IMG/VR virus record: IMGVR_UViG_3300042453_002579
Coordinates: 1-39,185 of that record
DNA from: a virus
Strand: one strand, 5' to 3'
Length of the DNA stretch: 39,185 nucleotides
Position 1 is the first letter of the stretch. Each line of letters begins with the position of its first letter. This document shows, piece after piece, positions 8,077-31,267 of the stretch. Below the pieces are notes generated by a model. That model searched no databases. It was not told the DNA's origin and saw only the letters and a list, made by a program, of their open reading frames with translations. The position numbers were made by a program, and so were the translations under genes.

Positions 8077-8077
8077 A

Positions 8078-13008: not shown

Positions 13009-13033
13009 TTTGCTCGGCTCGGAGGGTCACACG

Positions 13034-14768: not shown

Positions 14769-14774
14769 TACGAA

Positions 14775-15257: not shown

Positions 15258-16171
15258 TTCTTGGTCTCCTCTTGGATTCGATCGCGCATTGCGACCATTT
15301 CATGCATTGGTCTCGGGCTTGCGGCCCATTGTTCGAACTTCGCGAGCTTCTCTGCGTCGCTCGCCAGTAGCGCGCGAATCTCGACGGCGGCCTTGCGGTT
15401 TCGGTCGACGGACTTCGCGAACGCGCTCCACGATAGGTCGAGCGATTCGGGAAGCGCGAACCGATTCTTTGCCTCATAGGCGGCCGTTTTGGTCGTGTAG
15501 ACGAGCCTTCGGCCAGTGCTGACTCCCTTGGTGCGTCCGTCTACCTGCGTCGCGTATTGCTCCCACGACGCGAACAGGACGGTGTCCGCCCATTCGCGCA
15601 CGGCTCCGCCGAACTTCTCATTGACCTTCATCGTCCAGCGATCCCAATCCTCACCGGCCGGGTTGGCGTACTTTTTCAAATGGGCGTGCGCAATCAACAC
15701 GACGTGCATCCCGCGCTTGCTTTGGAGCAGCTCCAATGCACCGAGGAATCGCCGTGCCGCCTGCAATGCCTCGACGTATCCGCGACCGTACCCGAACGCC
15801 TCGATCGAGGCCTGCTGATGCTCGCCGCAGACGTGCGCCCATAGCAGCGGCTCGGCCCAGTCGAGCGAATCGACGACCACGGTCTGATAGTCGTGCTCCG
15901 CATCGGTCAGCTCGCGAACCCCCTCGAGGATGTCAGACCACGACTCAGGACGCGGGAATCGCGCGACGTCGAGAGCGCCGCTGCCGTCCTCGGTGCCAAT
16001 GAAAATCGGCGATGGTGCGGAGGCAGCAAACGTCGTTTTTCCCACGCCTTCCGCGCCGTACAGGACGACACGATGCGGAGACGCGATCGGGCCGCGTTTG
16101 ACGTTGGCCAAGCCCATGCGGCCTGCGGTTGCTTTCGACCCTTGCGCTTCTGGTTTCTTGGTGGCATTCAT
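15254..16171 (-). CDS. RecA-like AAA ATPase, Sak4-type recombinase
   Basis: The 305-residue ATPase has Walker A GAEGVGKTT (residues 39-47) and Walker B YQTVVVDSLDW (95-105), with the next strand GMHVVLIAHAHLKK matching sensor-type spacing. These features and its neighbours (an SSB-like protein and a Cas4-like nuclease) fit the Sak4/phage nucleotide-binding family of single-strand annealing or strand-exchange proteins. I placed the start at the ATG of MNATKKPEA, which has a purine-rich GAGGGA upstream; the frame is open for 57 more codons upstream but without family-like sequence. Confidence 0.8.
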   Translation of the reverse strand: MNATKKPEAQGSKATAGRMGLANVKRGPIASPHRVVLYGAEGVGKTTFAASAPSPIFIGTEDGSGALDVARFPRPESWSDILEGVRELTDAEHDYQTVVVDSLDWAEPLLWAHVCGEHQQASIEAFGYGRGYVEALQAARRFLGALELLQSKRGMHVVLIAHAHLKKYANPAGEDWDRWTMKVNEKFGGAVREWADTVLFASWEQYATQVDGRTKGVSTGRRLVYTTKTAAYEAKNRFALPESLDLSWSAFAKSVDRNRKAAVEIRALLASDAEKLAKFEQWAASPRPMHEMVAMRDRIQEETKK

Positions 16172-16196
16172 GTTCCCTCGCTTCGCTGTGACACTC

Positions 16197-16237
16197 ACGA
16201 GCGTCTGAGATGGTCTCAGGCGCTCGTTTCTTTTTTG
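16197..16237 (+). terminator. Strong hairpin plus T-tract, + strand, inside the reverse operon
   Basis: On + the sequence ACGAGCG-T-CTGAGA-TGG-TCTCAG-G-CGCTCGT folds into a 7+6 bp stem with one internal T/G pair and a 3-nt loop. TTTCTTTTTTG follows at once. It reads as a textbook intrinsic terminator for + transcription, although the flanking genes are on -. It would stop read-through from the late lysis operon before it opposes the recombination operon promoter. On - it is a hairpin without a T-tract between the nuclease and ATPase genes, possibly an mRNA processing or stability element. Confidence 0.75.
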
Positions 16238-17181
16238 AGTTCCGAGTGAGCCCCAACGTGCTCGAATCGCTCGGAATCCTCGATTGACGCTGCACCGGCG
16301 CAGACGTCCAAATAGTCGCAGCGTGCCCCGAATCGGTAGCAAGCTGCGGTGCTCCTGGGCCAGTGACCGCGCTTACGATCGGCGCGCATCGCCTGGATCG
16401 TGGCGACGTCGTCGGCCTGGCATTCGCTTAGCTCTTTCTCGAGGCGGTAGATCTCGGCTCGCGCGTAGAAGGTTTCGGGGCGCTCCGCGATAGCGACGCG
16501 GACGCGCTCCGCGTACTCGTCGAGCGATTCGTCGACGTCTCGCTGCGTGGCGTAGAGGCGGCCCTCTTTGGTATAGCGACGCTCGGCCTCAGGCGTTGCG
16601 AGACGTCGGGAGATCTTGGGCTTTCCGAGCACGTCGTAGATGACCCCGGCGACGTCGTAGCCGAGCGCTTTCGCGCCGAGCACGTAATAGCTGATTTGAG
16701 TGTCCACTTGGAGCCGGTCCCAATAGGGCGACCCCGGCCCAACGTCCGACGACGTCGTCTTGTGCTCGAGCACCCAGTGCGCGCCGTGACGGTCGACCAC
16801 GATCGCGTCGACCTTGCCAGCTCGCTCGATTCCGCGAATCCGCTTGCCCGTGCGCGGGTCGTAGATCGGGCACCGAAACGAGGCCTCGACCGCTACCGCA
16901 CGCAGGCCGTGCTCGGTACGGTCCGACTCCCATCGGAGCGCGTAACCGTCGAGCATGGCGCGAGCGCGGACGAGGTCTTCGCCGCTCAGCTGCTCGAAAA
17001 GGATGAGCTCGATCTGCTCGGGCTTGCCCAACCAATACGCCTCGAGGGCGGCATGGATCGCCGTGCCGAACGCAAGGGCTTCGGCTTTGTCTCCGCGCTT
17101 GCGAATCCCTTGTTCGTATCGGTGCAGATATGCACGAGGGCACGACCTGTAGAGCGAGATCGAACTAGTCGTTAGGAGCAT
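16216..17181 (-). CDS. PD-(D/E)XK nuclease, Cas4/RecB-like with Fe-S cysteines
   Basis: The 321-residue protein begins the reverse recombination operon. It has the RecB-type nuclease core: GTAIHAALEAYW (39-50, His43), Asp125 in GKVDAIVVD, and EHKTT (Glu139, Lys141), then QISYYVLGA (162-170). A Cys at 14 (SCPRAYLH) and three C-terminal cysteines (C281, C288, C294 in CYRFGARCDYLDVC) match the 4Fe-4S cluster layout of Cas4/AddB enzymes. In phages this nuclease usually pairs with a Sak4 ATPase to resect ends for recombination. Although Cas4 homologues serve CRISPR adaptation, its operon indicates a recombination role. Confidence 0.85.
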   Translation of the reverse strand: MLLTTSSISLYRSCPRAYLHRYEQGIRKRGDKAEALAFGTAIHAALEAYWLGKPEQIELILFEQLSGEDLVRARAMLDGYALRWESDRTEHGLRAVAVEASFRCPIYDPRTGKRIRGIERAGKVDAIVVDRHGAHWVLEHKTTSSDVGPGSPYWDRLQVDTQISYYVLGAKALGYDVAGVIYDVLGKPKISRRLATPEAERRYTKEGRLYATQRDVDESLDEYAERVRVAIAERPETFYARAEIYRLEKELSECQADDVATIQAMRADRKRGHWPRSTAACYRFGARCDYLDVCAGAASIEDSERFEHVGAHSELKKETSA

Positions 17182-17269
17182 CCCAACGGGCCTAGCTCGA
17201 AACGGTTACGGTTTGCAAGCGGAACTTTTTTCTTGACCATGACGATCGAGACCTGCCACTGTCCGCACC
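17182..17269. promoter_or_regulatory. Divergent control region with operator-like site
   Basis: This 88-bp gap separates the reverse recombination operon from the forward early operon that begins with a Cro-like repressor, so it should hold divergent promoters. It contains AAACGGTTACGGTTT at 17200-17214. The core GTTACGG (17205-17211) recurs as an inverted pair at 24896-24916. The site is a good candidate operator for the regulator encoded next to it. On + an A/T-rich stretch with TTGACC is at 17234; no convincing -10 is visible. Confidence 0.5.
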
Positions 17270-17479
17270 ATGCGAACGGCTGCCAGCCAACAGCTCGAGC
17301 GCCTCGTGCGGCCCGGTCCCCGGATCGCTGAGGTGGCTCGGGCGTGCGGGGTCTCTCCGACTGCGGTCCGCTACTGGATCGACGGTCGCAGTGTGCCGAG
17401 CGAACGGCACCGAGCGACCCTGGCTGCGACGTTCGCGATTCCCGTGGAGGATTGGATCAATGGTCAAAAACACGCGTAA
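17270..17479 (+). CDS. Cro/CI-type helix-turn-helix regulator
   Basis: The 69-residue protein is a single HTH domain: IAEVARACGVSPTAVRYWIDGRS (quoted here as the helix-turn-helix at residues 19-41) followed by SERHRATLAATFAIPVEDW, the usual ending of HTH_3/Cro-like domains. It is too short to carry a dimerisation or cleavage domain, so it resembles Cro or a small repressor. It lies at a divergent promoter region with a candidate operator. It probably controls both the recombination operon on - and the early genes on +. Confidence 0.75.
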   Translation: MRTAASQQLERLVRPGPRIAEVARACGVSPTAVRYWIDGRSVPSERHRATLAATFAIPVEDWINGQKHA

Positions 17480-17609
17480 ACCGACACGAATCAACCGCCG
17501 CAACCTGCGGATCGAGCCTGCTCCGACGTTCGATCTTGAGGGATTCCTCGTCGAGGCGCTTGGTGGAGCCGTCGTAATCGCCTGCCTTGCCGCGTTGGTG
17601 TTCGCATGA
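17460..17609 (+). CDS. Small single-pass membrane protein
   Basis: The 49-residue protein overlaps the end of the HTH gene by 20 nt. It has a strongly basic N-terminal half (VKNTRKPTRINRRNLR) and a hydrophobic C-terminal segment (GGAVVIACLAALVFA). This is a topology with the basic end inside. Function unknown; small early membrane proteins of phages are often superinfection-exclusion or host-modulating factors, but nothing here proves that. Confidence 0.5.
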   Translation: MVKNTRKPTRINRRNLRIEPAPTFDLEGFLVEALGGAVVIACLAALVFA

Positions 17610-17785
17610 CGCTCCCGGCACTCGAGGAGGTACGGGACGAGGCATCGCAGCGCTGGGCTGCGGGCTCGTCGTACGTCGACGCGCTGTCGTGGTCTGCTGG
17701 CGCTGGCATGGCCGTCTGGGTCGACCCGGACGGATGCGAGATCCTAGGGCTCGAGCCGTGGCCGCCGGCTGAGGAGGCGTCATGA
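17606..17785 (+). CDS. Small acidic protein
   Basis: The 59-residue frame starts at an ATG overlapping the upstream stop and ends overlapping the next ATG, both as ATGA. It is Trp- and Glu-rich (LPALEEVRDEASQRWAAG, VWVDPDGCEILGLEPW), soluble, and unlike any family I know. The perfect ATGA couplings on both ends support it as a gene. Confidence 0.55.
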   Translation: MTLPALEEVRDEASQRWAAGSSYVDALSWSAGAGMAVWVDPDGCEILGLEPWPPAEEAS

Positions 17786-18228
17786 CGGCCGAACAACTCG
17801 ACCTTTGGCTGACACTAGCAGACCGATTCGGAGCGGCGGAAATGCGCGTATACAAGAGCGAGGCAGGCAAACACACGACGGTCCATCCCATGGGCCCGGT
17901 GCACGGTAGGGACCCACTGAGGGCCGAGCGTAGGGCGCAACAGAAAGCGGATGCTGAGGCCGAAGCGCGACGGAACAAGCGGATCGCGGCAATCGCCGAA
18001 GCGGTCGACGGGCCGGCGATGCAGCGCACGCAGTTTCACACTGGCGAGCGCAACACGGATTGCGTCCGATATAGCGGCTGCCTGGACGCGTTCGTCGCGC
18101 GGCATTGCCAGCGCGCAGACGCGCACGCAGCGTGCCCGACGGGCTGCGCCTACTACCAGCGCGAGCGCCTGGTGCCTATCTCGAGGCGGGATAGCTCGCT
18201 CTCGGCCGGCGGAGAGGTGATCGGATGA
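17782..18228 (+). CDS. Hypothetical protein with C-terminal Cys cluster
   Basis: The 148-residue protein has a charged coiled-coil-like middle (ERRAQQKADAEAEARRNKR) and a Cys-rich C-terminal third: NTDCVRYSGCLDAF, then HCQRADAHAACPTGCAYY. Five cysteines plus His in that region suggest a zinc-binding module. It is coupled to its neighbours by 4-nt overlaps. A DNA- or RNA-binding role is possible but unproven. Confidence 0.5.
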   Translation: MTAEQLDLWLTLADRFGAAEMRVYKSEAGKHTTVHPMGPVHGRDPLRAERRAQQKADAEAEARRNKRIAAIAEAVDGPAMQRTQFHTGERNTDCVRYSGCLDAFVARHCQRADAHAACPTGCAYYQRERLVPISRRDSSLSAGGEVIG

Positions 18229-18788
18229 GCCTCGCGCAAGCCATTATGATCGCCGCTCTGGAGTTCGCGCCGATCGAAACGCGGCCGGAGTTTCCTGGCT
18301 ATGAGGAAACGCGCGCCGAGACCCTCGATCGCTATTGGTCGATCGCGCAAGACATCGCTGCAGCGGCGCAGGAAACCCAGGCCAAGCCCGGCGGAATCAG
18401 CGATGAGGACGAGGCCGCGCTACTGCTCGCGCTTGCGATCGGTGAGTCGGGGCTATCGCTCGACGTCGATCGAGGGCCTTGCTATCGCAAAGGCAAGTGG
18501 GCCGCGCGTTGCGACGGGGGCACAAGCCACACGATCTGGCAGCTCAAAACGGTGCGATTCGATGGATCTGTGCGCAGCGGCAAAGAGCTGCAAGCGAATC
18601 GTGCGCTAGCGGCTCGAGTAGCGCTTTGGCTTGCGCGCGGTTCGCTCGGGCAATGCCGCAAGATGGAGCCGCGCGATCGATTGTCGGCGTACGGCGCTGG
18701 CTATTGCAAGGAGGGCCTGCCCGACGTGCGCGCTCGACACGCGCTGTGGATCAAGATCCGCGACTTCCTGCGGAGGCCGAGGCCGTGA
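18225..18788 (+). CDS. Lysozyme-like / lytic transglycosylase-type protein
   Basis: The 187-residue protein has the SLT/lysozyme-superfamily pattern: LLALAIGESGLS with candidate catalytic Glu74, followed by GGTSHTIWQLKT (residues 98-109), which parallels the S-x-G-x-x-Q-x motif region of transglycosylases, and later RLSAYGAGYCKEG (residues about 152-164). Such enzymes cleave the glycan backbone of peptidoglycan. It lies in the early/middle operon, far from the endolysin, and has no signal peptide. It may be a second lysin or be virion-associated. Confidence 0.65.
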   Translation: MSLAQAIMIAALEFAPIETRPEFPGYEETRAETLDRYWSIAQDIAAAAQETQAKPGGISDEDEAALLLALAIGESGLSLDVDRGPCYRKGKWAARCDGGTSHTIWQLKTVRFDGSVRSGKELQANRALAARVALWLARGSLGQCRKMEPRDRLSAYGAGYCKEGLPDVRARHALWIKIRDFLRRPRP

Positions 18789-19366
18789 GCAAGCTCGAAC
18801 GCATCGAGGGCGACTACTACGCAACGCCAGCGTGGGCGACCGAGCTAATCCTCGACGAGCTGTGGCTACCGACGAACGCACGCATCCTCGACCCGTCGGC
18901 AGGCGAGGGCGCGATCCTCGACGTTGCTGCGGCACGAGGATTCACGACATGCGGCTACGAAATAGACGGGATACGCGCCGGCAACTGCCGAAACAGGCAT
19001 TCCACAATCCAATGCGACGCGCTAGGCCCAGCCCCTTGGTGTCACGCATCGGCCATCGTGGGCAATCCGCCATTCAGCAAGGCCCTCGAGTTCGCCGAAA
19101 AGGCGGCGCAATGGGCCGAGGCTCACGGGACCGTGGCCGCGTTGCTCCTGCGTCTCGCGTTCGCTGAGAGCAAGTCGCGGGTCGAGTTTCATCGATCGTA
19201 TCCGAGCGCGCTGCGGGTGCTGTCGGAGCGGCCTCGGTTTCGTGTCGACACTAGGGGCACGGATTCGAGCGCGTACGCGTGGTTTGTTTGGGATCGGCGG
19301 TATCAACCCATGGTCGAGGGCTGGCGCGTTTTGGCGCGCAAGGAAGGTGCACAGTGCAAGGGCTGA
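18785..19366 (+). CDS. DNA N6-adenine methyltransferase
   Basis: The 193-residue protein starts at a GTG overlapping the previous stop. It has the SAM-binding motif DPSAGEGAIL (36-45) and the catalytic motif GNPPFS (93-98), a variant of the (D/N)PP(Y/F) signature of amino-methyltransferases. YYATPAWATELILDEL upstream is the typical N-terminal substrate-side helix of phage adenine methylases. It probably methylates phage DNA to avoid host restriction or to mark replication. No specificity domain is present. Confidence 0.8.
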   Translation: MSKLERIEGDYYATPAWATELILDELWLPTNARILDPSAGEGAILDVAAARGFTTCGYEIDGIRAGNCRNRHSTIQCDALGPAPWCHASAIVGNPPFSKALEFAEKAAQWAEAHGTVAALLLRLAFAESKSRVEFHRSYPSALRVLSERPRFRVDTRGTDSSAYAWFVWDRRYQPMVEGWRVLARKEGAQCKG

Positions 19367-19518
19367 GATTGATTTGGGACGCAATCGCCTCAGTGGTCGC
19401 TGAGGCCATCATTGACGAATGGGAGCGCAAGCGTCGCGAGATCGACGACGCGGAACTCGAGGTGTTGGAGCGTCGGCTGAGTGAGCTTCGCAAGACGCGA
19501 AACGCGAGGGCGAACTAA
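19354..19518 (+). CDS. Small helical hypothetical protein
   Basis: The 54-residue protein starts at a GTG with an AAGGAAGG ribosome-binding site 7 nt upstream and overlaps the end of the methyltransferase gene by 13 nt. It is a charged helix with a heptad pattern (EWERKRREIDDAELEVLERR). It may be a short coiled-coil dimer. Function unknown. Confidence 0.5.
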   Translation: MQGLRLIWDAIASVVAEAIIDEWERKRREIDDAELEVLERRLSELRKTRNARAN

Positions 19519-19519
19519 A

Positions 19520-19900
19520 GTGCAGCAAGAGGTCTCGTTTTTCGTGCGCGGGCTAGCCATTGGCAAGCCGCGACCTCGCGTAACCGCTCGTGGCGCGTTC
19601 ATGCCGGCCCGATACCGCGATTATCAGCGCGAGGTGAAGGCGTGCGCGATCGAGGCCTTCGGGGTGCACCTCGAGGCGGGAGGGCGTTGGGATGTCGAGG
19701 CTCCGATGGTGCTCGATTGCACGTTCGTCTTTACGGACCATCGACGGCGAGACCTCGACAACCTGCTCGGCGGGGTCATGGATTCGTTGCTCTCGGTCGC
19801 CTATCGCGACGATTCGCAGGTCGTCGAAATCGCCGCGCGCAAGTTCGTGCTGGGTACCGAGCCGAGCGTTAGTGTGCGGCTTCGGCTGCTCGGTGAATGA
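19520..19900 (+). CDS. rusA: RusA-like Holliday junction resolvase
   Basis: The 126-residue protein starts at a GTG just after the upstream stop. It shows the RusA signature: an N-terminal GKPRPRVTARGAFMP substrate loop, HRRRDLDNLLGGVMDSL with the Asp pair 78/80, and YRDDSQV with Asp 97/98. RusA is a dimeric endonuclease that resolves four-way junctions, used by phages to debranch DNA before packaging. Length is right for the family. It sits among nucleotide and DNA metabolism genes. Confidence 0.85.
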   Translation: MQQEVSFFVRGLAIGKPRPRVTARGAFMPARYRDYQREVKACAIEAFGVHLEAGGRWDVEAPMVLDCTFVFTDHRRRDLDNLLGGVMDSLLSVAYRDDSQVVEIAARKFVLGTEPSVSVRLRLLGE

Positions 19901-19941
19901 TGCTGAATAGGCCGGCCGGTCGGCTGGCGAGAGGGGCGAGA

Positions 19942-20379
19942 ATGAAGCTATCTGAACAGGTTCGCGAGTTTCACCGCGCAATGGGTCAGCCTGTGCTCGA
20001 GCGGCCGAAGGTCCCCGACGATGAACGCGTGCGGCTGCGGCTGCGGCTCATCGCTGAGGAGTTCATGGAGCTTGTCGATGCGACGTTGATCCTCCCCTAT
20101 GCGCAGTTCGCGCGGCAGCTACGGGGCATCATCGACACCGCTCCGATCGCCGTCGACCTCGTCGATATGACCGATGCGCTGGCCGATCTGGACTACGTCA
20201 TCGAGGGGACGCGCGCAGAGTTCGGCATCGACGGGGAGCCCATTGCCGCGCTCGTGCACGATTCGAACATGGCCAAGCTCGGCGGCAAGCCCGACGCATT
20301 GGGCAAGATCCAGAAGCCCGCAGGCTGGCAACCTCCCGACATCGAGGGAGAGCTAACGCGGCAGGGCTGGCTCGAGTGA
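19942..20379 (+). CDS. MazG/HisE-like phage nucleotide pyrophosphohydrolase
   Basis: The 145-residue protein begins MKLSEQVREFHRAMGQPV, the usual start of this phage family, and has a GAGGGGCGAG ribosome-binding site. An in-frame ATG at 19897 overlapping the RusA stop would add 15 residues of atypical sequence. Residues 28-50 hold RLIAEEFMELVDA (acidic metal-binding helix) and 75-95 hold DLVDMTDALADLDYVIEGT, with the second acidic helix. The C-terminal SNMAKLGGKPDALGKIQKP is characteristic. It hydrolyses NTPs or dNTPs to monophosphates and PPi, and may remove alarmones or modified nucleotides. Confidence 0.85.
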   Translation: MKLSEQVREFHRAMGQPVLERPKVPDDERVRLRLRLIAEEFMELVDATLILPYAQFARQLRGIIDTAPIAVDLVDMTDALADLDYVIEGTRAEFGIDGEPIAALVHDSNMAKLGGKPDALGKIQKPAGWQPPDIEGELTRQGWLE

Positions 20380-20690
20380 GCCTCAGTGCGGCCGAGCTGG
20401 TTGCGCTCATGCGCAAGCGGCAAGCGGGCGTTGGGCTGAGCGATTACCAGCGGCGGGTACTGGCGCACATTCGCGAGCAAGCGTGCGTCGATGAGATCTG
20501 CCCGCGATGCGAGCGGGCCGCGATCATCGAGGTCGACGCAAAGGTCGAGCGGGCAACGGCTGAGGAGCTAGCAGCCGGTGAAGCCGAGCGTTGGTGGGGT
20601 CCGTGGAAGCGTTTTCACGAGGCTTACGTAAAAAGCGGCGTGCATCATGGCGATGCGCTTCGGATGCTCGAAAGGAACAAGGACAAATGA
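20376..20690 (+). CDS. Hypothetical protein directly upstream of cas12m
   Basis: The 104-residue protein starts at a GTG overlapping the upstream stop, and its own TGA overlaps the Cas12m ATG. It contains one CPRC pair (EICPRCERAA), helical charged segments and a Trp-rich patch (AERWWGPWKRF). No second Cys pair is visible, so a full zinc ribbon is not supported. Translational coupling to the CRISPR effector makes it worth testing as an accessory, but position alone may reflect packed phage gene order. Confidence 0.55.
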   Translation: MSLSAAELVALMRKRQAGVGLSDYQRRVLAHIREQACVDEICPRCERAAIIEVDAKVERATAEELAAGEAERWWGPWKRFHEAYVKSGVHHGDALRMLERNKDK

Positions 20691-22411
20691 CGACAAGGGT
20701 CTACCGATACGGGTTGCTAGCTCCGACTGAGAACGGCGAGCTAGTCAGGCAGCAAATGCGGCTCGGTCATCGCTATCAGAACGACCTCATTGCGATCGAA
20801 CGAGGCCGAAGGTTGGCGTTTGCCGCTGTCATGTCGAGCGACACGCGCATTTCAGAGGCCGAGGCCAAGATCACTGAGATCGACGCGAAGATCTCGCAAG
20901 CGGTAGAGCGAGCTCGACAAGCTCGAGTGGCGCGCCGAACCAAGGCAGACACCGACGAGACCAAGTCCGAGATCCGGTCACTGAAAGCATCCAAGGCCGC
21001 TGCCGTGCTCGAGCTGCGATCCGTCAAGCCGCTCGTGCAATCCGAGCTGCGGCCTAGGATCGCAGAAGTCGACGCAAGGGCTCACGAGCTGCAGATCTCC
21101 GCTCGCGCACACTGCGGGGTCTATTGGGGGACCTACCTGCTCGCGGAAGCGGCCGCCGAACAGGCGGCGAAAACGACGAAGGGCGAGTTGAGATTTCAGC
21201 GCTGGGACGGCTCTGGACAGGTCTCGGTGCAGATCCAAGGCGGTGCAGACGTCGATGACGTCGTCGGCGATGCGGACACTCGGCTGCGTTGGCCGCAATA
21301 CGTAGAGGGGACGCGCAAAGCCAAGCGCACCGAACTCGCCATGCGCGTAAGCAGCGAAAAAGGCGCTCCGGTCTGGGCACGGTGGCCGATGGTCTATCAC
21401 CGGCCGTTGCCCACCAATGCCAGGATCAAGCGAGTGATCGTATCGCTACGCATGCGCGGTCCGCGTGAGGAGTGGTCGGTCGAGGTCACGATCGACGCGT
21501 CGACGTGCAGACTCCGCGACCGGCCCGACGGTGGCAAGGTGGCGGTGCATCTTGGCTGGCGCAAAGAGCCTAGCGGGAACGTGCGAGTGGCTACCTGGCT
21601 CGGCGACGATGGGGACGCGGGGAGCATTGAGTGCCCCGAGCGCGTCCTTACCGGATTTTCCAAGTGCGAATCGTTGCGCTCGATTCGCGATCGAAACCTC
21701 GACGAACTACGGGCGCGCCTTCTGTCGGCTCGCGATGGATGGCCGGAATGGCTGCGCGATGCCACGTCGAGCCTGCACCAATGGCGCTCTCCCGGCCGGT
21801 TCGTGGCGCTCGGGCAACGATGGAAAGCGGCTGGCGTGGATCCAGCGCACGCAAGCGACTACGGGGCGATCGAGGCTTGGCGGTATAACGACCATCACCT
21901 TTGGCGCTGGGAGCATGACCAGCGGCTAAACTCGACTCGCTACAGGCGCGAGGTCTACAGGATCGCGGTGGCTGAGCTGTCGAGGCGATACCGTCGCGCC
22001 ATCCTGATGGCGGCCGATTGGGCCGAAATGGCGAAGCTCCCCGGCATCGGCGAAGGCGCGCCGGACCTGCCCGACGAAGCGCGCGCGCAGCGCGTGGAGA
22101 CTGCTCCCTACGTGCTGACCGAGGCGTTGCACTCTGCGATGGCCGAGGTGGTTTGGGTCGATCCTAGCTATCTGAGTCAAGCGTGTCGGCATTGCGACCA
22201 CAAAGACACCGGCGACACGTGGGTCCGAGAGTGCACCTCGTGCGGCAAATCGAGAGACATCGACGAGGCTGCAGTGCGCACGATGTTGGATCTCGAGGAG
22301 GCCGGCGCGTGGTCGTGGAAAAAGGGAGGAGCCAAGGACGACAGCGGCAAGGTCCGCGAGATCCGCGCGCCGAAGTGGGCCAAGAAACACGCGACCGAGG
22401 CCGCAGAGTGA
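20687..22411 (+). CDS. cas12m: Cas12m-like CRISPR effector (type V-M, formerly V-U1)
   Basis: The 574-residue protein is close in length to known Cas12m (about 600). Seen in order: N-terminal MTTRVYRYGLLAPTE followed by a helical arm with LRQQ-type REC segment (residues 18-140); YWGTYLLAEAAA (146-157); FQRWDGSGQVSVQIQ (170-184); RuvC-I strand VAVHLGWR (285-292); HQWRSPGRFVALGQRW (364-379); a helix LWRWEHDQRL; RuvC-II strand AILMAADWAEM (438-448); zinc ribbon C500-x2-C503 and C516-x2-C519; RuvC-III RDIDEAAVRTML (523-534). The GSG-V-VQ, HLGWR and W(R/K)SP(G/Q)RF blocks match, as I recall it, the Mycolicibacterium Cas12m. His288 replaces the first RuvC Asp, as in that family; Ala442-Ala443 replace the acidic pair expected at RuvC-II. 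Known Cas12m binds crRNA-matched DNA and blocks transcription. A CRISPR array lies 55 nt downstream on the same strand. TnpB is the alternative, disfavoured by the array and by these blocks. Confidence 0.88.
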   Translation: MTTRVYRYGLLAPTENGELVRQQMRLGHRYQNDLIAIERGRRLAFAAVMSSDTRISEAEAKITEIDAKISQAVERARQARVARRTKADTDETKSEIRSLKASKAAAVLELRSVKPLVQSELRPRIAEVDARAHELQISARAHCGVYWGTYLLAEAAAEQAAKTTKGELRFQRWDGSGQVSVQIQGGADVDDVVGDADTRLRWPQYVEGTRKAKRTELAMRVSSEKGAPVWARWPMVYHRPLPTNARIKRVIVSLRMRGPREEWSVEVTIDASTCRLRDRPDGGKVAVHLGWRKEPSGNVRVATWLGDDGDAGSIECPERVLTGFSKCESLRSIRDRNLDELRARLLSARDGWPEWLRDATSSLHQWRSPGRFVALGQRWKAAGVDPAHASDYGAIEAWRYNDHHLWRWEHDQRLNSTRYRREVYRIAVAELSRRYRRAILMAADWAEMAKLPGIGEGAPDLPDEARAQRVETAPYVLTEALHSAMAEVVWVDPSYLSQACRHCDHKDTGDTWVRECTSCGKSRDIDEAAVRTMLDLEEAGAWSWKKGGAKDDSGKVREIRAPKWAKKHATEAAE

Positions 22412-22466
22412 ACCGCTCGCAGGGTGCTTGCCATGTGCGCGGTATTGCTGGCATCCTGCGGGACTC
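22412..22466 (+). promoter_or_regulatory. Leader segment between cas12m and the CRISPR array
   Basis: These 55 bases separate the cas12m stop from the first repeat. They are GC-rich, with no clear -35/-10 pair. The array may therefore be transcribed with cas12m. A short stretch at 22417-22433 loosely resembles the start of the repeat but is out of phase with the array. Confidence 0.35.
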
Positions 22467-22649
22467 ATCGCAAGGGCTGCTCAGGGCCATCGAATCTGAG
22501 ACGGCGCGGTGGTACGCCGAGCGCGGATGAATCGCCAGAATCGCAAGGGCTGCTCAGGGCCATTCAATCTGAGACCTCGGCGCGCAGGACGGACGGCGTA
22601 TGTCCTTGCCCCAATCGCAAGGGCTGCTCAGGGCCATCGAATCTGAGAC
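22467..22649 (+). CRISPR. Mini CRISPR array: three 36-nt repeats, two spacers
   Basis: Repeats lie at 22467-22502, 22540-22575 and 22614-22649, spaced 73 and 74 nt apart. The first and third are identical over 36 nt (start ATCGCAAGGGCTGCTCAG, end AATCTGAGAC); the second differs at two adjacent bases (CG to TC). Spacers are 37 nt (22503-22539) and 38 nt (22576-22613) and unrelated to each other. Each repeat holds an inverted pair CTCAG/CTGAG whose second arm ends two bases before the spacer, the position expected for the 3' hairpin of a type V crRNA handle. The two variant bases lie in the loop, so the stem is kept. Orientation therefore matches cas12m: repeat first, spacer 3'. Confidence 0.9.
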
Positions 22650-22684
22650 CAGCGGCAGTCGGTGGCGTTTGATAAACTAACGAC

Positions 22685-22728
22685 AAGCGCGCCGAGAACG
22701 CTCGAAACCCGAGCGACTTCGCGCGCTT
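22685..22728 (+). terminator. Nested hairpin between CRISPR array and replication gene
   Basis: Outer arms AAGCGCGC (22685-22692) and GCGCGCTT (22721-22728) are perfect inverted repeats of 8 bp. Inside them CGCTCG (22699-22704) and CGAGCG (22710-22715) form a second perfect 6-bp stem around AAACC. A weak T-containing stretch (CGGTCTTTG) follows. It could end the crRNA transcript, protect its 3' end, or act as an origin-proximal or translational control element for the replication gene that starts 35 nt later. The lack of a clean T-run makes terminator function uncertain. Confidence 0.5.
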
Positions 22729-22762
22729 CGGTCTTTGATGGCTGTTTGATAGGAGGTGCACA

Positions 22763-23674
22763 GTGTGGGCGAAACTTGATTGCGGGTGGTATGAGGCGCG
22801 CTGGATCGACGGCGCGCGAGCTAGACGGGCCGATCTGCTGGCGGCGTGGGCGGTGGCGCTCGCGTGGACGGTGCAGCACCGGACCGACGGCCTGCTCCCG
22901 AGCGGCCGTGTAAAGGCGCTGCTCGCGTACGCCCTCGAGGTGGACCGGGTCGATGCGGGCCGGCTCGTTGAGGCGCTGGTCGAGGTCGGGGCATGGATCG
23001 AGGTGGCCACCGGCTACCAGATTGCCGATTGGGACCAGCCGACTCGAGACGATCAGGACCGAGCGCGTGACCTGGCAAGTCGACGGCAAGCGAAGCGACG
23101 GGAGGTCTCGTCGTCGCCGGACATGTCACGCCGTGACAGTCACGCAGTGTCACGCCGTGACAGTCACGCAGTGTCACGGCGTGACGCATCGGAGGTGTCA
23201 CGCGAGTCGCGTCACGCAGTGTCACGCTCCCAGATAAGAGAAGATCAGAAAAGAACAGAACAGAACAGAAGTGCTGTCGCGCCCGCGCCCACACCCGCGC
23301 CCGTGCCCGCACCCGCGCGCGAGACCGTCGAGCCGCAGACGCCTACGGCGGGACAGCAACAAGGGGTGGGGATTAGTGACGACCAGCGGACGATCCTCGA
23401 AGCCCTGGGACGTCACCGCAAGCTCGAGGCGGTCGCCACGGCAGACCTAGCCGCGACCATCGACGGTCGGCGCGCCGCTCGAGGTCACTCGGTCGCAGAG
23501 GTCGTGCGCGCCATCGACGACGCGGCGGCACACTCGGTCGAGGGGCTGCAGGCGGAGGCCCTGCGGCGGAGGGTCGTCCAGTACACCGATCGAGCTCGAC
23601 CGCCGGTGCGCGTGGTTGCGCCAGCGCAGTCGGACGTCCCCGTCGAGCGCGCCTGGAAGGTCGGGGCGCTGTGA
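22763..23674 (+). CDS. Replication initiator protein (lambda O-like role) containing iterons
   Basis: The 303-residue protein starts at a GTG with a strong AGGAGGTG site 4 nt upstream. Residues 1-100 resemble the winged-helix N-terminal domain common in phage replication proteins (KLDCGWYEARWIDG, RADLLAAWAVALAWTVQHRTDG, quoted as pattern; YQIADWDQPTRDD). Residues 122-156 are an octapeptide repeat SRRDSHAV encoded by 24-bp DNA repeats; then follow a Gln/Asn-rich piece, a Pro-Ala linker (APTPAPVPAPA) and a C-terminal helical domain (about 205-303) likely for partner binding. The next gene is a DnaC-like helicase loader overlapping by 4 nt, the O-P arrangement of lambdoid phages. The protein should bind its own internal repeats. 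Confidence 0.75.
   Translation: MWAKLDCGWYEARWIDGARARRADLLAAWAVALAWTVQHRTDGLLPSGRVKALLAYALEVDRVDAGRLVEALVEVGAWIEVATGYQIADWDQPTRDDQDRARDLASRRQAKRREVSSSPDMSRRDSHAVSRRDSHAVSRRDASEVSRESRHAVSRSQIREDQKRTEQNRSAVAPAPTPAPVPAPARETVEPQTPTAGQQQGVGISDDQRTILEALGRHRKLEAVATADLAATIDGRRAARGHSVAEVVRAIDDAAAHSVEGLQAEALRRRVVQYTDRARPPVRVVAPAQSDVPVERAWKVGAL
23125..23230 (+). repeat. 24-bp iterons inside the replication gene
   Basis: Repeat units start at 23125, 23149, 23173, 23197 and (partial) 23221, in exact 24-bp register. Units one and two are identical; three and four are diverged. The core GTCACGCCGTGAC is a 13-bp palindrome, and GTCACGCAGT ends most units. The DNA repeats keep the codon frame, giving the SRRDSHAV repeat in the protein. 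This is the arrangement of lambda ori within gene O. Confidence 0.85.
23125..23272. other. Predicted replication origin (iterons plus AT-rich segment)
   Basis: The 24-bp iterons (23125-23230) are followed at once by a purine/A-rich segment at about 23231-23272 (CAGATAAGAGAAGATCAG then AAAAGAACAGAAC repeats). It is the most AT-rich stretch nearby in an otherwise GC-rich genome. Iterons followed by an easily melted segment, inside the initiator gene and just upstream of a helicase loader gene, is the lambda-type origin layout. Confidence 0.7.
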
Positions 23675-24282
23675 GCAGTCTCGGCGATGAGCTGACCGTC
23701 ATGTTGACAGCTATCGGTCAACGGCTCCGACTCGAGGAGCGGACCGAGGAGCCTACCCGTCGACCTCGCGACCTGACCGGCGCTCCTGGCTCGTACGGGT
23801 GGCTACACGAGCCCGGCGCGCTGTCTCGGCTGGTAGGGTGGCCTACAGCGGATAAGCTGCGTCTAATCGCCAGCCAGCGGCCAAGGATGGCCTGCCTTTG
23901 GGGCAAGCGCTCCGGGGTCGGCAAGACGGCCTCAGCGGTCGCCCTCGCGCGGGTACTCTCGCCCGATGGGATCGGGCTGTTCGTCCGCTCGACGGAGCTG
24001 GTTGCGTCGATCCAAGAGGCCGGCTGGGGCTCGGTGCCTGAACTGGTCCATCGGGCCAGGACCACGGGCCTCCTCGTGCTCGACGACCTCGGGATCGAAC
24101 AAGCGTCCGAACCGGCTCGGGCGGCGCTGTGCGATCTGGTGTGGCGACGGGCAGACCGACCTCGAGGGACGACGATCGTCACCACGTCGCTCGGACCGGA
24201 CGAGCTCACGAGGCGCTACGGGGACGGCATGACGCGTCGGCTCCACGAGGCGGCCAGCGTCGAGATCGGCGGTGCGACGTGA
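23671..24282 (+). CDS. DnaC/IstB-like helicase loader ATPase
   Basis: The 203-residue AAA+ protein starts at a GTG overlapping the upstream stop. Walker A is GKRSGVGKT (78-86), Walker B is LLVLDDLG (134-141), and TTIVTTSL (about 167-174) is the sensor-1 region of DnaC/DnaI-type loaders. Residues 1-70 would contact the helicase or the initiator. It presumably delivers the host replicative helicase to the origin in the preceding gene, the role of lambda P or DnaC. No phage helicase or polymerase gene was found, so replication depends on host enzymes. Confidence 0.85.
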   Translation: MSSLGDELTVMLTAIGQRLRLEERTEEPTRRPRDLTGAPGSYGWLHEPGALSRLVGWPTADKLRLIASQRPRMACLWGKRSGVGKTASAVALARVLSPDGIGLFVRSTELVASIQEAGWGSVPELVHRARTTGLLVLDDLGIEQASEPARAALCDLVWRRADRPRGTTIVTTSLGPDELTRRYGDGMTRRLHEAASVEIGGAT

Positions 24283-24870
24283 TCGCCGCGCTCTATGTGC
24301 AACGGGGGGGGGGTCTATTACGGCCTAGATGGCGTCGACCCGTGGGACGAGTCGCGCAACGCCCTCGGCTACGACGGGCCCCATCCAGTCGTCGCGCATC
24401 CTCCGTGCTCGCGCTGGTGCCGATTGGCTGCCTTGGTCGAGGCTAGATGGGGCCACAAACGCGGAGACGACGGGGGCACGTTCGCGCACGCGCTGCGGTG
24501 CGTGCGCGAATTCGGAGGAGTGCTGGAGCACCCTGCCTACAGCGACGCGTGGGCGGCGTTCGATCTGCCGCGACCGACTCGGAGCGGGTGGACACGCGGG
24601 ATCTGCGGAGGGTGGTCGGCACACGTTGAGCAGGTTCGATACGGACACCCGGCCAAGAAGGGGACGTGGCTGTACGCGTACGGAGTGGACCTGCCAGAGC
24701 TGCGCTGGGGGAGCGAGCACGACCGGGACTCCACGGCGCTCGTGAGCTGGTGTCGCAATCGGATCCGATCGGGGGAGGTCCGCCCAAGGGTCGGCAAGCG
24801 CTCGGCCTCGCGGACGCCGATCGAGTTCCGCGACGTGCTACTCGAGATGGCTCGAACGGCTCGACCGTAA
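24279..24870 (+). CDS. Frameshifted gene: phage PPC-motif protein, interrupted at a G10 tract
   Basis: A GTG overlapping the loader stop opens a frame MIAALYVQRGG that runs into ten consecutive G residues (24304-24313). The rest of the protein continues in another frame (GVYYGLDGVDPWDESRNALGY, quoted in part) to 24870. With nine Gs the two halves would join exactly into one protein of about 196 residues. The body has HPVVAHPPCSRWCRLA (PPC motif as in cytosine-C5 methyltransferases and related phage proteins) and GGVLEHPAYSDAWAAF. I know this arrangement from many phages without an assigned function. The downstream part could also start at the ATG at 24295. A homopolymer error, phase variation or ribosomal slippage can each explain it. 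Confidence 0.65.
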
Positions 24871-25005
24871 CGCCAGCGTCACAGTGAGCGTCACACCGTA
24901 ACCGCTTGTGTTACGGTTTCGGTCACGAACTGGGCTAGGCGACGTCGAGATCTGCGGAGATTCCGAGGGCTCGACGTTGGCACGGACTGTGTACTAGAGG
25001 ACGGC
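24865..25005. promoter_or_regulatory. Operator-like inverted repeats and promoter region
   Basis: CCGTAAC occurs at 24865-24871 and 24896-24902, and GTTACGG at 24910-24916; the last two form a perfect 7-bp inverted repeat with a 7-bp spacer. GTTACGGTTT also occurs in the divergent control region at 17205-17214. Two GCGTCAC copies (24876, 24888) and GGTCACG (24921) resemble the GTCAC half-sites of the iterons. The 135-bp gap precedes four small genes, so a repressor-controlled promoter is the simplest reading. No convincing -35/-10 pair can be picked by eye. Confidence 0.55.
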
Positions 25006-25239
25006 ATGAACACGAGCAACGCACGCAAACCACTCCCGAACGATCTCCGCGCTGCCTACGCGTGGACGGCGGCAGCCGGCGAACTGGGCCAACTGTCCGA
25101 ACTGCGCGGAGACGACCTCGAGGCGTACGTACTCGACAGCGCCGAGAACGCTCGCGAGCATGGGGACGACGAGGTGCTGTCCAGCGATCTGCGCGAGCTC
25201 GCAGACTGGCTGCGATCCGGCCGCGAGGTGTCGCGATGA
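25006..25239 (+). CDS. Small acidic hypothetical protein
   Basis: The 77-residue protein is the first of four overlapping small genes controlled by the operator region. It has AGAGGACGG before its ATG as a likely ribosome-binding site. It is helical and acidic (LSELRGDDLEAYVLDSAEN, DLRELADWLRSG). Small acidic proteins in such a position include anti-defence and host-takeover factors, but no family is recognised. Confidence 0.5.
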   Translation: MNTSNARKPLPNDLRAAYAWTAAAGELGQLSELRGDDLEAYVLDSAENAREHGDDEVLSSDLRELADWLRSGREVSR

Positions 25240-25469
25240 TCACCGTCACGATCTACAGCGCGCACGGTCGAGTCATGTCGACCTGCACTGTGGGCTCCGA
25301 ACAGGAGGCAAAGAAGGTTGCGGCGCACAGGCTGGGCAAGAACAGCCTCCGAGGCTGCCGCGCCTGGGACCGCTACCAAGGGGGCCGGGTCTATCAGTTC
25401 GGCGCGGGTGATCGGATGCACGCGGTCATACAGCGCGATGGCGACGACGGATTCGGGGTGTCGCGATGA
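25236..25469 (+). CDS. Small basic alpha/beta hypothetical protein
   Basis: The 77-residue protein overlaps the previous stop as ATGA. It has a beta-alpha-beta texture (MITVTIYSAHGRVMSTCTV, EAKKVAAHRLGK, GRVYQFGAGDRMHAVIQRD) similar to small nucleic-acid-binding or enzyme-inhibitor folds. Function unknown. Confidence 0.5.
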   Translation: MITVTIYSAHGRVMSTCTVGSEQEAKKVAAHRLGKNSLRGCRAWDRYQGGRVYQFGAGDRMHAVIQRDGDDGFGVSR

Positions 25470-25681
25470 CGGCTCGACGCCTGCCCGACGGATCGATCAC
25501 GTACGACGTCGAGGCCTATAGCGCCGCGTGGCAAGCGGTCGCTGCGCCGCTGTGCCAAGCAACCGGATGGGCCGTGCTCGGCTACGATCCGGGGTACCTC
25601 ATCGACACGGGAGCTCGTGCGGTGTCGCTGACAACCGACGAGGTGCGCACCCTCAGCCGCATCGCGGGAGGTGCCAAGTGA
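25466..25681 (+). CDS. Small hypothetical protein
   Basis: The 71-residue protein overlaps its neighbours by 4 nt. It has ITYDVEAYSAAWQAVAAPL and WAVLGYDPGYLIDTGARAV, a compact alpha/beta protein without Cys clusters. No family is recognised. Confidence 0.5.
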   Translation: MTARRLPDGSITYDVEAYSAAWQAVAAPLCQATGWAVLGYDPGYLIDTGARAVSLTTDEVRTLSRIAGGAK

Positions 25682-25953
25682 GCGCCATGTCCTACCTCGC
25701 CACGCAGCACGTCGAGCGTGCCGATCGGTATCTCCGAGGCACGTACCTGAACACACTGCGCTATGCCTACCGCGACAGCGTCACGGGCCGTCGATGGGTC
25801 GTCGACGCCGACGCGCTCATCGACCTAGGCGCAGCACTGCACGAGGCCTCAGGGGTAGCGGCTCGAGAGCGAGCGTTTGTGCAGTGGCGTTTGGTCACTA
25901 CGCACCAAGACTGGTGCGACCGGGGCGATCCGAGCGGGCTCGTCTGGCACTAG
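25678..25953 (+). CDS. Small hypothetical protein, last of early block
   Basis: The 91-residue protein starts at a GTG overlapping the upstream stop; an ATG at 25687 is an alternative. It is aromatic and charged (ERADRYLRGTYLNTLRYAY, FVQWRLVTTHQDWCDRG). It ends 25 nt before a strong terminator, so it is the last gene of its transcription unit. Function unknown. Confidence 0.5.
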   Translation: MSAMSYLATQHVERADRYLRGTYLNTLRYAYRDSVTGRRWVVDADALIDLGAALHEASGVAARERAFVQWRLVTTHQDWCDRGDPSGLVWH

Positions 25954-25978
25954 CGCCACACGTCCATATCGCACACCG

Positions 25979-26032
25979 AGCCAGGCAACCGAGAGCGGTT
26001 GACCTGGCTGATGTGTTTTGTGCACTTTTTTT
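25979..26032 (+). terminator. Strong intrinsic terminator before the terminase genes
   Basis: AGCCAGGCAACCG (25979-25991) pairs with CGGTTG-A-CCTGGCT (25996-26009) around a 4-nt loop AGAG, giving a 13-bp stem with one bulged A. It is followed by TTTTG and a run of seven T (26026-26032). It closes the early/replication transcription unit. Confidence 0.85.
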
Positions 26033-26196
26033 CAGAAGCCCCCCCCTATCGTATTGAGGGGTTAGCGAGGGCCGCGGGGCCCTCAACGGCTAGGATAACG
26101 ATCCTGGGACGAATAATGTCCGACCGCCATCGGGGGCTATTGCACACGACGTGACCTAGCTGCTACCGTCGACGAGCGGCGCAGTAGTCGCGCGTG
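26033..26196. other. Gap upstream of terminase: C8 tract and GC hairpin
   Basis: No gene is visible here. The gap holds C8 (26039-26046) and a hairpin GAGGGCC-GCGG-GGCCCTC (26067-26084), which overlaps an alternative TTGAGGG/CCCTCAA pair (26054-26060 with 26080-26086). A late promoter must lie here or near it. Regions just before terS often hold the cos or pac recognition site, which is a possibility but not shown by the sequence. Confidence 0.4.
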
Positions 26197-26784
26197 ATGG
26201 CACAGCCCCCGAAACTCGACGAATCCCAGCGGCGCGAAATCGTGCGCCGGCACACGGCAGGCGAGAGCCTGCGCACGATCGCGGGTGCGTACGGCGTTTC
26301 GCACATCGCGATCAAGAGGTGCGTCGACAAGGCCAAGGCCGCGCAAGGCACAGCGCCGGCTCCTGGCACTCGAGACTACCGGCCGACCGTCCCAGGAGGT
26401 CCTCCGCGCGTCCTCGTCGACCTCGCCCACCAGGTCACGGCAGCAGCACCACCTCGAGGTGCGCCACCGGCCGACCTCGTCGAGGAGCTCGACGACTACG
26501 ACCGGAGACGTTGGCAGCTCGTCGCGCGGCTCGACGACGCGATGCTCGACTGCCGGCCATCGGACTTGGCCAACCTGGCAAAAACTCAGAACACGATTCT
26601 GATGGCGCTGCAAAATGCGAGCGTCATGAGAAAGTCCACCGGCGACACCACAGACGGCCTCAGCGACATCGCGGCTGGCGTACGTGCTCGTCTGCGCAGG
26701 CTAGCGGAGGCCGGCGCACCGGCTGTCGAGGCTGCTCCGGTGGCCAGTGCTGAACCTACGGCTACGGGGACCGATGGGCAGTAG
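26197..26784 (+). CDS. terS: Terminase small subunit
   Basis: The 195-residue protein begins with an HTH domain (RREIVRRHTAGESLRTIAGA, YGVSHIAIKRCVDKA) as in DNA-recognising small terminases, followed by a Pro/Ala linker, a helical oligomerisation region (WQLVARLDDAMLDC, LAKTQNTILMALQN) and an Ala-rich acidic tail. It overlaps the large subunit gene. The start may be the GTG at 26194 or the ATG at 26197. It recognises the packaging site and regulates the large subunit. Confidence 0.8.
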   Translation: MAQPPKLDESQRREIVRRHTAGESLRTIAGAYGVSHIAIKRCVDKAKAAQGTAPAPGTRDYRPTVPGGPPRVLVDLAHQVTAAAPPRGAPPADLVEELDDYDRRRWQLVARLDDAMLDCRPSDLANLAKTQNTILMALQNASVMRKSTGDTTDGLSDIAAGVRARLRRLAEAGAPAVEAAPVASAEPTATGTDGQ

Positions 26785-28090
26785 TCTCGCGATGCAGTTC
26801 GCGGCGCAGATGGCGCACGCCAGCGATCGCGAGCTGGCCGCCATCGCGCACGACTGGCAGTTTTGGGGCAGGCCTGAACAGATGATGCCGCCGGGGGCGT
26901 GGTCGCGCTGGCTGATCCTCGCGGGTAGAGGCTGGGGCAAAACGCGCACTGGCGCGGAGGCCGTGAGGCAGGCTGTCTACGATGGGGCCATGCGGGTCGC
27001 GCTCGTCGGCCCAACCGCTGGTGACGTGCGCGACGTCATGCTGTTCGGAGAATCGGGCTTGCTCAATATTTTCCCCGAGCACGAGCGACCCAAATATGAG
27101 CCGAGCAAGCGCCGAATCCTATTCCATACAGGCGCGATCGGAACGCTCTATTCAGCCGAAAAGCCCGACCGTTTGCGTGGTCCTCAGCACGAGTTCGCAT
27201 GGCTCGACGAGTTAGCGGCGTGGAGCAATCTCGGCGACACGCTCTACAATCTGCAGTTTGGCCTGCGACTCGGGAAAAACCCTAGAATGGTGATTACCAC
27301 GACGCCTCGCCCGCTCGAGATCATCAAGGAATGGGTTGCGCAATCCGAGACCGGTAGCGACGTCGTCGTCACTCGAGGTAGCACGTACGACAACGCGGCA
27401 AACCTCGCGAAAAAGTTTCTCGATGAGGTTCGACGAGCCTACGAAGGGACGCGCCTTGGTGCACAGGAGCTCTACGGAGAGATCCTGGCGCCGGTCAACG
27501 GCCTATTCAAACGCGAGTGGTTTCGTTATCTCCCGTTCACCGATGCGCCCAAATTCCAGCGCGTCGTGGTCTCGGTCGATCCTGCTATCGGCATCGAGAA
27601 CGACGAGACCGGGATCGTGGTCGTTGCTCGCGCGCACGATGCCGCATACGTGCTCGACGACCTCTCCGGCCGCTGGTCACCGGACGAATGGGCACGACGC
27701 GCTGTAGAGGCGGCCAAGCGCTACAGGGCGCAGACCATCGTCGCTGAGGTCAATCGAGGTGGCGACTTGGTCAAGACGACGATCCGCCAGTTTGACAAAT
27801 CAATCCCGATCAAAGAGGTACGCGCGAACAAGGGCAAGGACACAAGGGCCGAGCCCGTCGCCGCGCTTTATGAGCAGGGGCGCGTCTATCACCTCGAGAG
27901 ATTGCAAAAGCTCGAACAGCAAATGTGCGAATGGGACCCAACGAGCCAAGACGAGCTACGCTCGCGCAAGCGCGCGACGAGCCCGGATCGTCTCGATGCC
28001 CTGGTTTGGGGCATCAATGAACTAGGATTCCACCTTGGCGTTGCGCGATTGGCCCCGGTGAATGTAGACTTCCCGACGACGGCATTCTGA
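26774..28090 (+). CDS. terL: Terminase large subunit
   Basis: The 438-residue motor has Walker A AGRGWGKT (50-57), Walker B FAWLDELAAW (141-150, Asp145-Glu146), the coupling motif ITTTPRPLEI (174-183) and a C-terminal RNase H-like nuclease domain with SVDPAIGIENDETG (267-280, Asp269 candidate metal ligand). Start ATG 26774 gives the usual N terminus; an upstream in-frame GTG at 26747 adds nine residues. It pumps DNA into the prohead and cuts it. Confidence 0.93.
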   Translation: MGSSLAMQFAAQMAHASDRELAAIAHDWQFWGRPEQMMPPGAWSRWLILAGRGWGKTRTGAEAVRQAVYDGAMRVALVGPTAGDVRDVMLFGESGLLNIFPEHERPKYEPSKRRILFHTGAIGTLYSAEKPDRLRGPQHEFAWLDELAAWSNLGDTLYNLQFGLRLGKNPRMVITTTPRPLEIIKEWVAQSETGSDVVVTRGSTYDNAANLAKKFLDEVRRAYEGTRLGAQELYGEILAPVNGLFKREWFRYLPFTDAPKFQRVVVSVDPAIGIENDETGIVVVARAHDAAYVLDDLSGRWSPDEWARRAVEAAKRYRAQTIVAEVNRGGDLVKTTIRQFDKSIPIKEVRANKGKDTRAEPVAALYEQGRVYHLERLQKLEQQMCEWDPTSQDELRSRKRATSPDRLDALVWGINELGFHLGVARLAPVNVDFPTTAF

Positions 28091-28091
28091 C

Positions 28092-30810: not shown

Positions 30811-30813
30811 AAA

Positions 30814-31242: not shown

Positions 31243-31267
31243 CAGCGCATAAGGAGGCGCAAAGATC

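Follow-up and report, generated by a model that had tools for sequence, protein, structure and literature searches.

A type V-M (Cas12m) CRISPR unit with a two-spacer array in a 39-kb phage genome

The virus record IMGVR_UViG_3300042453_002579, analysed here over all 39,185 nucleotides (nt) of positions 1 to 39,185 (hereafter the window), carries an effector gene of the Cas12m type followed by a short array of clustered regularly interspaced short palindromic repeats (CRISPR). The effector and the array almost certainly belong to type V-M, one of the type V subtypes listed as inactivated and as silencing through binding (PMC12669027). We propose that together they make up a minimal phage-borne V-M unit, in which CRISPR RNA (crRNA) guides binding to DNA without cutting, most likely against competing mobile elements; the probability of this reading is put at roughly 0.7. 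Since no spacer target was found, the mechanism is modelled on characterised Cas12m proteins. The unit is real and probably functional. Its significance lies in a small, complete phage genome that carries a self-contained, compact and probably non-cutting CRISPR effector, and in a sister phage (IMGVR_UViG_3300010354_000234) that keeps the effector and shares none of the spacers. The pair makes it testable how spacers are renewed in phages without Cas1 and Cas2, and whether RNA-guided binding alone suffices for phage-phage or phage-plasmid competition.

The assignment of the effector is based on nearly its whole length. The PADLOC model Cas12u1 (V-U1 is the old name of V-M) matches residues 1-535 with E=7.4e-90, which bears out the Cas12m identity proposed in the initial annotation; a second PADLOC model, PDLC01692, labelled Cas12f, matches nearly equally, and both models match 6/6 family members scanned. 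Searched against PDB sequences at E<=0.001, the family profile gives five matches, all of them Cas12m (E=6e-90 to 3.7e-29), with 23vw_A (Cas12m) the best, then 8pm4, 8hio/8hhl (Cas12m2) and UnCas12m4a. The 8pm4_A chain is deposited as 'Transposase', yet titled Cas12m, and the other four matched chains are named Cas12m. The structure comparison that had been suggested as a check was also run, and the four top Foldseek matches are Cas12m or Cas12m2 structures; they are taken as supporting evidence because the predicted effector structure is poor (mean predicted local distance difference test score 54, four sequences). Pfam and NCBIfam match the effector at the zinc ribbon only, a domain common to TnpB proteins, with PF07282 at 26.7 bits, barely above its cut-off of 26.3, and the guided-TnpB model NF040570 at 21.6 bits against a cut-off of 100, within the zinc ribbon and not over the whole protein. 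These matches are what speaks for a TnpB transposon nuclease lying beside unrelated repeats, an explanation to which we give almost no weight: the Cas12u1/Cas12m match is full-length, the array is of the CRISPR type with a V-M scaffold, and arrays also lie beside the homologues in the phage Virus Rctr197k, in a Planctomycetota locus (L013) and on the plasmid pMESIL02. The profile searches, proposed beforehand as the way to reveal a TnpB protein with no Cas12m affinity, thus place the effector with Cas12m.

The motifs of the effector agree with this placement. The segment VSVQIQ with Q182/Q184, HLGWR with H288, QWRSPGRF, a CxxC...CxxC zinc ribbon (C500/C503/C516/C519) and RDIDEAA are present, so that the Cas12m block order read initially from the sequence stands in all its named motifs, the RuvC-III DxD included; it needs the correction that the RuvC-II acid is missing (M441). 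Residue numbers from the MmCas12m2 paper for contacts with the protospacer adjacent motif (PAM), crRNA and DNA and for the RuvC site were placed on the PDB chain, where 18/18 agree; some others, such as His12 and Arg447, are outside this set. According to the alignment, the PAM glutamines Q195/Q197 of MmCas12m2 are kept as Q182/Q184 and the crRNA contacts H269/R270 as H238/R239.

The RuvC site suggests that the unit works by binding. MmCas12m2 H317/D485/D579 align with H288/M441/D526, and this triad, in which the RuvC-II acid is lost, is found in both phages. Among 15 aligned Cas12m-type sequences, the window phage and its sister included, the RuvC-I residue is D in 8, H in 4 and N in 3, and at the RuvC-II position M occurs only in the two phages, the others having E, D, N, T or K. 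The triads listed for Cas12m are HEK, HQK, HDD, DED, NED and DND in PMC10442227, with D-E-D, H-D-D and N-D-D in PMC11013384; H-M-D does not appear in either list, and degenerate triads are typical of the family. Characterised Cas12m proteins with D-E-D, H-D-D or N-D-D bind and show no double-stranded DNA cleavage (PMC11013384). With the acid lost, cutting is unlikely, and the effector very probably binds DNA without cutting, so the non-cutting repressor anticipated at the outset is supported by homology. Processing of the crRNA precursor is independent of the mutated RuvC residue in MsCas12m (PMC11013384) and in MmCas12m2 (PMC10442227), and the loss of the acid therefore need not block guide maturation. 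In a RuvC tree the window phages group with MmCas12m2 and GoCas12m at a support of 89/84, which is below the tool's mark for a firm branch, so that H288 may or may not be shared by descent.

The array lies on the same strand as the effector gene and starts 55 nt after it, as initially described, with three 36-nt repeats and spacers of 37 and 38 nt. The 29-nt repeat core occurs in three copies in the window with at most 3 mismatches, all on the plus strand, and 0/100 dinucleotide shuffles reach three copies; no further copy was found at this threshold on either strand, a scan that a partial anti-repeat (trans-activating crRNA) could escape. In the cryo-electron microscopy structure of Cas12m2, the crRNA scaffold consists of a stem and a pseudoknot beside the guide, and the heteroduplex is 17 bp (PMC10442227). 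Pairs modelled on this scaffold were counted in 65 repeat units (48 distinct rows) from six loci: 3 of the window, 8 of the sister, 22 of Rctr197k, 23 of the Planctomycetota locus L013, 1 of L016 and 8 of the MsCas12m locus. Two pattern hits within the L013 gene were left out, as were a few decayed partial units missed by the patterns (near 7220 in L013; near 7690 and 8310 in Rctr197k). Standard pairs fill 96.5% of the cells, against 79.7% in shuffled and 9.8-51% in slid alignments. Both sides change in 8/9 scaffold pairs, and 0/500 shuffles reach any of five measures; the rows are related, so that the shuffle counts are not probabilities, and the slid controls preserve this relatedness. Pairing is weakest at the last pseudoknot pair, where 10 of the 48 distinct rows are unpaired and 3 gapped, and the loop just 5' of the 3' strand varies within single arrays of the family. 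We rely on this count and not on an earlier one of 23 units, some of which had been chosen after compensatory changes were seen; alignment A3, in which some L013 rows are off register, was set aside. The window repeats form the V-M crRNA scaffold, and the view of them as crRNA-type repeats is thereby upheld through covariation.

The comparison with the sister phage shows that the effector is retained while the spacers differ. The sister record of 37,368 bp is 95-97% identical to the window over two long stretches with virion genes and 87-89% over two others, and the similarity is much lower after the array. Its Cas12m has 96% amino acid and 91.7% nucleotide identity to the window gene. Over 574 codons, dS (synonymous divergence) is 0.35 and dN (nonsynonymous divergence) 0.021, which gives a dN/dS of 0.06, with the frame open in both phages; cas12m is under strong purifying selection. 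In the sister the array counts 8 repeats, and none of its 7 spacers is shared with the window's 2; five measure 36-38 nt, and the remaining two, of 18 and 17 nt, are as long as the Cas12m2 heteroduplex. As the dS of 0.35 makes the phages related and not near-identical, the turnover of spacers may have taken long. The conserved leader and trailer around arrays of 2 and 7 spacers with none in common are counted in favour of the proposed unit. A decaying relic, with the array reduced to two spacers and the effector's active site lost, would account for the short array and the missing RuvC-II acid, and an 83.6-kb virus record keeps just an N-terminal Cas12m remnant. We consider decay improbable in view of the dN/dS and the open frames, the 8 repeats of the sister array, and the degenerate RuvC triads often found in functional Cas12m (PMC10442227, PMC11013384). 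The effector lies directly 5' of the array in both phages, which is not the arrangement of a mini-array without its own effector. Mini-arrays and solitary repeats are known on viruses (PMC11656645), and the array might accordingly feed a host CRISPR system or act as an RNA anti-CRISPR, with Cas12m incidental; the homologous effector upstream of both arrays, and a repeat scaffold that is the same as beside MsCas12m and in Rctr197k, make this very unlikely.

The unit is part of a phage genome. Positions 1-127 and 39059-39185 of the window are the same, an end overlap of 127 bp that gives a circular map of 39,058 bp, and the sister record continues straight across this junction; the window is therefore a complete circular phage genome rather than a piece of host chromosome. 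PHROG profiles identify the terminase, portal, head maturation protease, major head, head-tail adaptor, tail sheath, tape measure and baseplate proteins of the virion, together with an exonuclease, a Sak4-like annealing protein, a DNA methyltransferase, a RusA-like resolvase, a nucleotide pyrophosphohydrolase, a helicase loader and a replication initiation protein. For the major head protein, the best phage matches include Rhodobacter phage RC1 (47.9%), Pseudomonas phage DMS3 (42.8%) and Myxococcus phage Mx4 (40.7%). We take RC1 and DMS3 to be Mu-like phages, in line with the Mu-like virion ascribed to this small phage from the start. Neither the window nor the sister has a match to the Pfam profiles of Cas1 and Cas2 (0/2 each), again as first stated, while each profile matches 10/14 control genomes, above the curated cut-off in 9 (Cas1) and 7 (Cas2). 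No match to the tyrosine integrase profile was found in the two phages (0/2; control 14/14 genomes), and a Mu transposase profile matched 0/14 control genomes, which makes that search uninformative about the phages.

Based on these observations, a course of action can be proposed for the unit. The 4-nt overlap between cas12m and the preceding open reading frame (ORF), together with the close packing, suggests that cas12m and the array are transcribed within a phage operon. The repeats would fold into the V-M crRNA scaffold indicated by covariation, and Cas12m, alone or with host RNases, may cut the precursor within the repeats, as modelled on MsCas12m and MmCas12m2. The guide complex would locate a target match of about 17 bp next to a PAM and stay bound, blocking transcription or replication, and with Met at position 441 and His at 288 the target would presumably not be cut. 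The most likely use would be against competing mobile elements in the host cell, for example superinfecting phages or plasmids; in E. coli, Cas12m can confer protection against plasmids and phage (PMC11013384). We lean slightly towards competitors as the main targets. As the search for Cas1 and Cas2 in the phage gave no match, new spacers would probably come from recombination or be supplied in trans by adaptation genes of the host. A bolder version is offered tentatively, and we doubt it more than the proposal itself: the phage lineage may have a re-programmable repressor in its Cas12m, which is without the RuvC-II acid, with spacers replaced wholesale between related phages in spite of the missing Cas1 and Cas2 matches and with some guides trimmed to 17-18 nt, the array being a changing inter-phage weapon loaded by recombination or in trans by host adaptation machinery.

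Several results weigh against the proposed unit and its use. For either window spacer, no convincing protospacer was found in 50,697 phage and 72,556 plasmid records, in the two phages or the fetched loci, or in an IMG/VR search restricted to exact matches of the first 20 nt; the spacer comparison also took in 11-15 kb pieces of two other records. The sole IMG/VR seed match, in the L012 record, agrees at 20/20 and then fails, with 15 mismatches over 37 nt. A consensus scan of the leader gave no sigma-70-like promoter for the array. MmCas12m2 N156, a PAM contact, aligns with L151, and the PAM may hence differ. A single repeat under nested-only folding is no better than shuffles (z 0.25), which is expected if the pseudoknot requires protein and equally gives no support. 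The absence of a phage or plasmid protospacer for the window spacers would suit a device for takeover or timing, in which the spacers silence host genes, such as defence genes, or host-resident elements, and precedents exist in the phage-borne CRISPR of ICP1 directed against host defence (PMC13232261) and in the targeting of host defence generally (PMC11656645). We regard such a device as unlikely, given that 2 and 7 wholly different spacers in related phages fit changing targets better than fixed host genes.

Other candidate targets were examined and rejected. The best phage match of spacer 2, in Caulobacter phages (84% over 36 nt, E=0.1), is treated as chance, and its first 17 nt match the phage's own genome at one place, position 577 on the minus strand, with 3 mismatches, which is not counted since shuffled seeds average 0.6 such hits. 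A protein-level match of its frame + 0 in L055 (z 3.8 with 20 shuffles, 37 frames tested) is not counted because it is without DNA identity. The best plasmid match of spacer 1 is 89% over 28 nt (E=0.4). As for the sister spacers, no target was found for s2 and s3 in the phage collection, and codon-degenerate patterns of each retrieved only its own array in IMG/VR; s1, s5 and s6 were compared with the fetched loci only, and s4 (18 nt) and s7 (17 nt) likewise, at the DNA level only. The best resemblance of s3 is to a head gene: it falls on one and the same codon of the major head protein in L026 (12 mismatches over 38 nt) and in the sister itself (13 mismatches). Its sense frame scores 32 against a shuffled-peptide mean of 30.6, and with the degenerate pattern no gene of this kind came up, so a head-gene-targeting role was discarded; the antisense frame at the same place gives z 2.3.

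The coordinates of the unit are collected in Table 1. The effector ORF opens with ATG and is uninterrupted, and the same frame is also listed from an earlier TTG at 20591. The window and the sister diverge at the replication initiation ORF just after the array: the window has a 303-residue ORF (22763-23674), and the frame in the sister (L002:12361-12504) ends at 47 codons. Tandem and palindromic TGTCACGCCGTGACAGTCACGCAG-type repeats lie within this ORF at 23124-23233 and are possibly origin iterons. A PD-(D/E)XK exonuclease at 16216-17181 on the minus strand has its best match to a phage exonuclease family (E=1.6e-35) and also weakly matches a PHROG labelled CRISPR/Cas system associated (E=2.8e-6). 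No tRNA was found in the window, and an Rfam search of 20300-23300 gave weak matches only, under the family cut-offs.

Table 1 Features of the phage genome and its V-M unit (window coordinates).
Feature	Position	Strand	Basis or remark
Phage genome bearing the unit	1..39185	.	Terminase, portal, protease, major head, sheath, tape measure and baseplate genes
Upstream ORF	20376..20690	+	No PHROG or Pfam match; 4-nt overlap (ATGA) with cas12m start
Cas12m-type (V-M, formerly V-U1) effector, 574 residues	20687..22411	+	Profile matches, alignments
Leader, 55 nt, between cas12m and repeat 1	22412..22466	+	53/55 aligned columns same in sister
CRISPR repeat 1, 36 nt	22467..22502	+	Repeat extraction
Spacer 1, 37 nt	22503..22539	+	Repeat extraction
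CRISPR repeat 2, 36 nt	22540..22575	+	Repeat extraction; two loop changes
Spacer 2, 38 nt	22576..22613	+	Repeat extraction
CRISPR repeat 3, 36 nt	22614..22649	+	Repeat extraction
Trailer, 25 nt, after repeat 3	22650..22674	+	Identical in sister phage

Relatives of the unit are few in the collections searched. A repeat-pattern scan of IMG/VR retrieved only the sister, and effector scans there, made with short conserved peptides and not exhaustive, added a 46.4-kb contig with a full-length homologue and the 83.6-kb record with the N-terminal remnant. In the latter (IMGVR_UViG_3300021178_000012) the remnant is a 157-residue ORF corresponding to the N-terminal part of Cas12m only (L011:2872-3345), and no CRISPR-like repeat family is listed in L003:8000-14712 of this record. 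One effector match, Rctr197k, was found in the annotated phage records, and 14 plasmid records have one at E<=1e-5. A scan of the genome collection gave a single relative, a Planctomycetota metagenome-assembled genome, and a search of 392 Planctomycetota genomes found Cas12m in 1, the starting one. Its locus (JANQEJ010000327.1, L013:4679-7391) has a 488-residue Cas12m-like gene and 23 irregular repeat units, 6 upstream and 17 downstream, whose starts are spaced 33-115 nt apart within each side; compensatory pseudoknot changes occur within this one array (CUCAAC/GUUGAG at 6425 and CUCGUC/GACGAG at 7249). Loci with related head genes, many of them fragments, gave Cas12m in 0/28 (27 of 36 non-sister viral loci plus the L012 record) in a search without a positive control.

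Phage-borne V-M is already known, from Rctr197k and from virus-encoded effectors in a landfill study. According to one review, CRISPR systems are rare in phages below 200 kb, whereas jumbo phages have many (PMC11656645), which agrees with part of the initial statement that viral type V effectors are known mainly from huge phages; the statement was overstated, because the same review describes V-M as enriched in plasmids and as present in some prophages (PMC11656645), and because the landfill study of 2025 grouped 24 virus-encoded effectors near viral arrays with Cas12m and put the mean length of viruses that encode arrays at about 48 kb (PMC12607003). The landfill effectors resemble the present one in lying near viral arrays, and no acquisition genes were predicted in the phages with effectors highlighted there, as is the case here for Cas1 and Cas2. 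Rctr197k (KX853510, a 197-kb phage) has a Cas12m-like gene with 35% amino acid identity, the same repeat scaffold, and an array directly 3' of the effector that is annotated as CRISPR in the record and from which 22 repeats were extracted; unlike the window, it is a larger phage record with a longer array and a D-E-D triad. In that record (KX853510.1 107507-119171, L008) the gene is annotated 'similar to transposase', and the repeats become irregular toward the far end of the array. The 46.4-kb viral contig IMGVR_UViG_3300033233_000059 shares 39% amino acid identity (alignment A5) and has one repeat with the same scaffold, but its triad is D-E-D and it ends just past the first repeat. MsCas12m, on plasmid pMESIL02 of Allomeiothermus (Meiothermus) silvanus DSM 9946 (NC_014214), is 30% identical over 557 columns and has a downstream array of 8 units with the same scaffold; it differs in being plasmid-borne and in having D-E-D instead of H-M-D. 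The pMESIL02 gene is taken to be the published MsCas12m by its species and numbering, residue 274 being the RuvC-I Asp in agreement with the D274A mutant of PMC11013384. MmCas12m2 (PDB 8HHL/8HIO) and GoCas12m (8PM4) likewise have H at RuvC-I, and MmCas12m2 shares the crRNA pseudoknot scaffold, the PAM glutamines and the crRNA-contacting His-Arg; both have an H-D-D triad and come from Mycolicibacterium and Gordonia, not from phages. Searches of the open-licence literature gave no paper that names this lineage. In conclusion, what the window and its sister seem to add to the known V-M systems is the H-M-D triad, a complete 39-kb genome, and wholly different spacer sets in two related phages.

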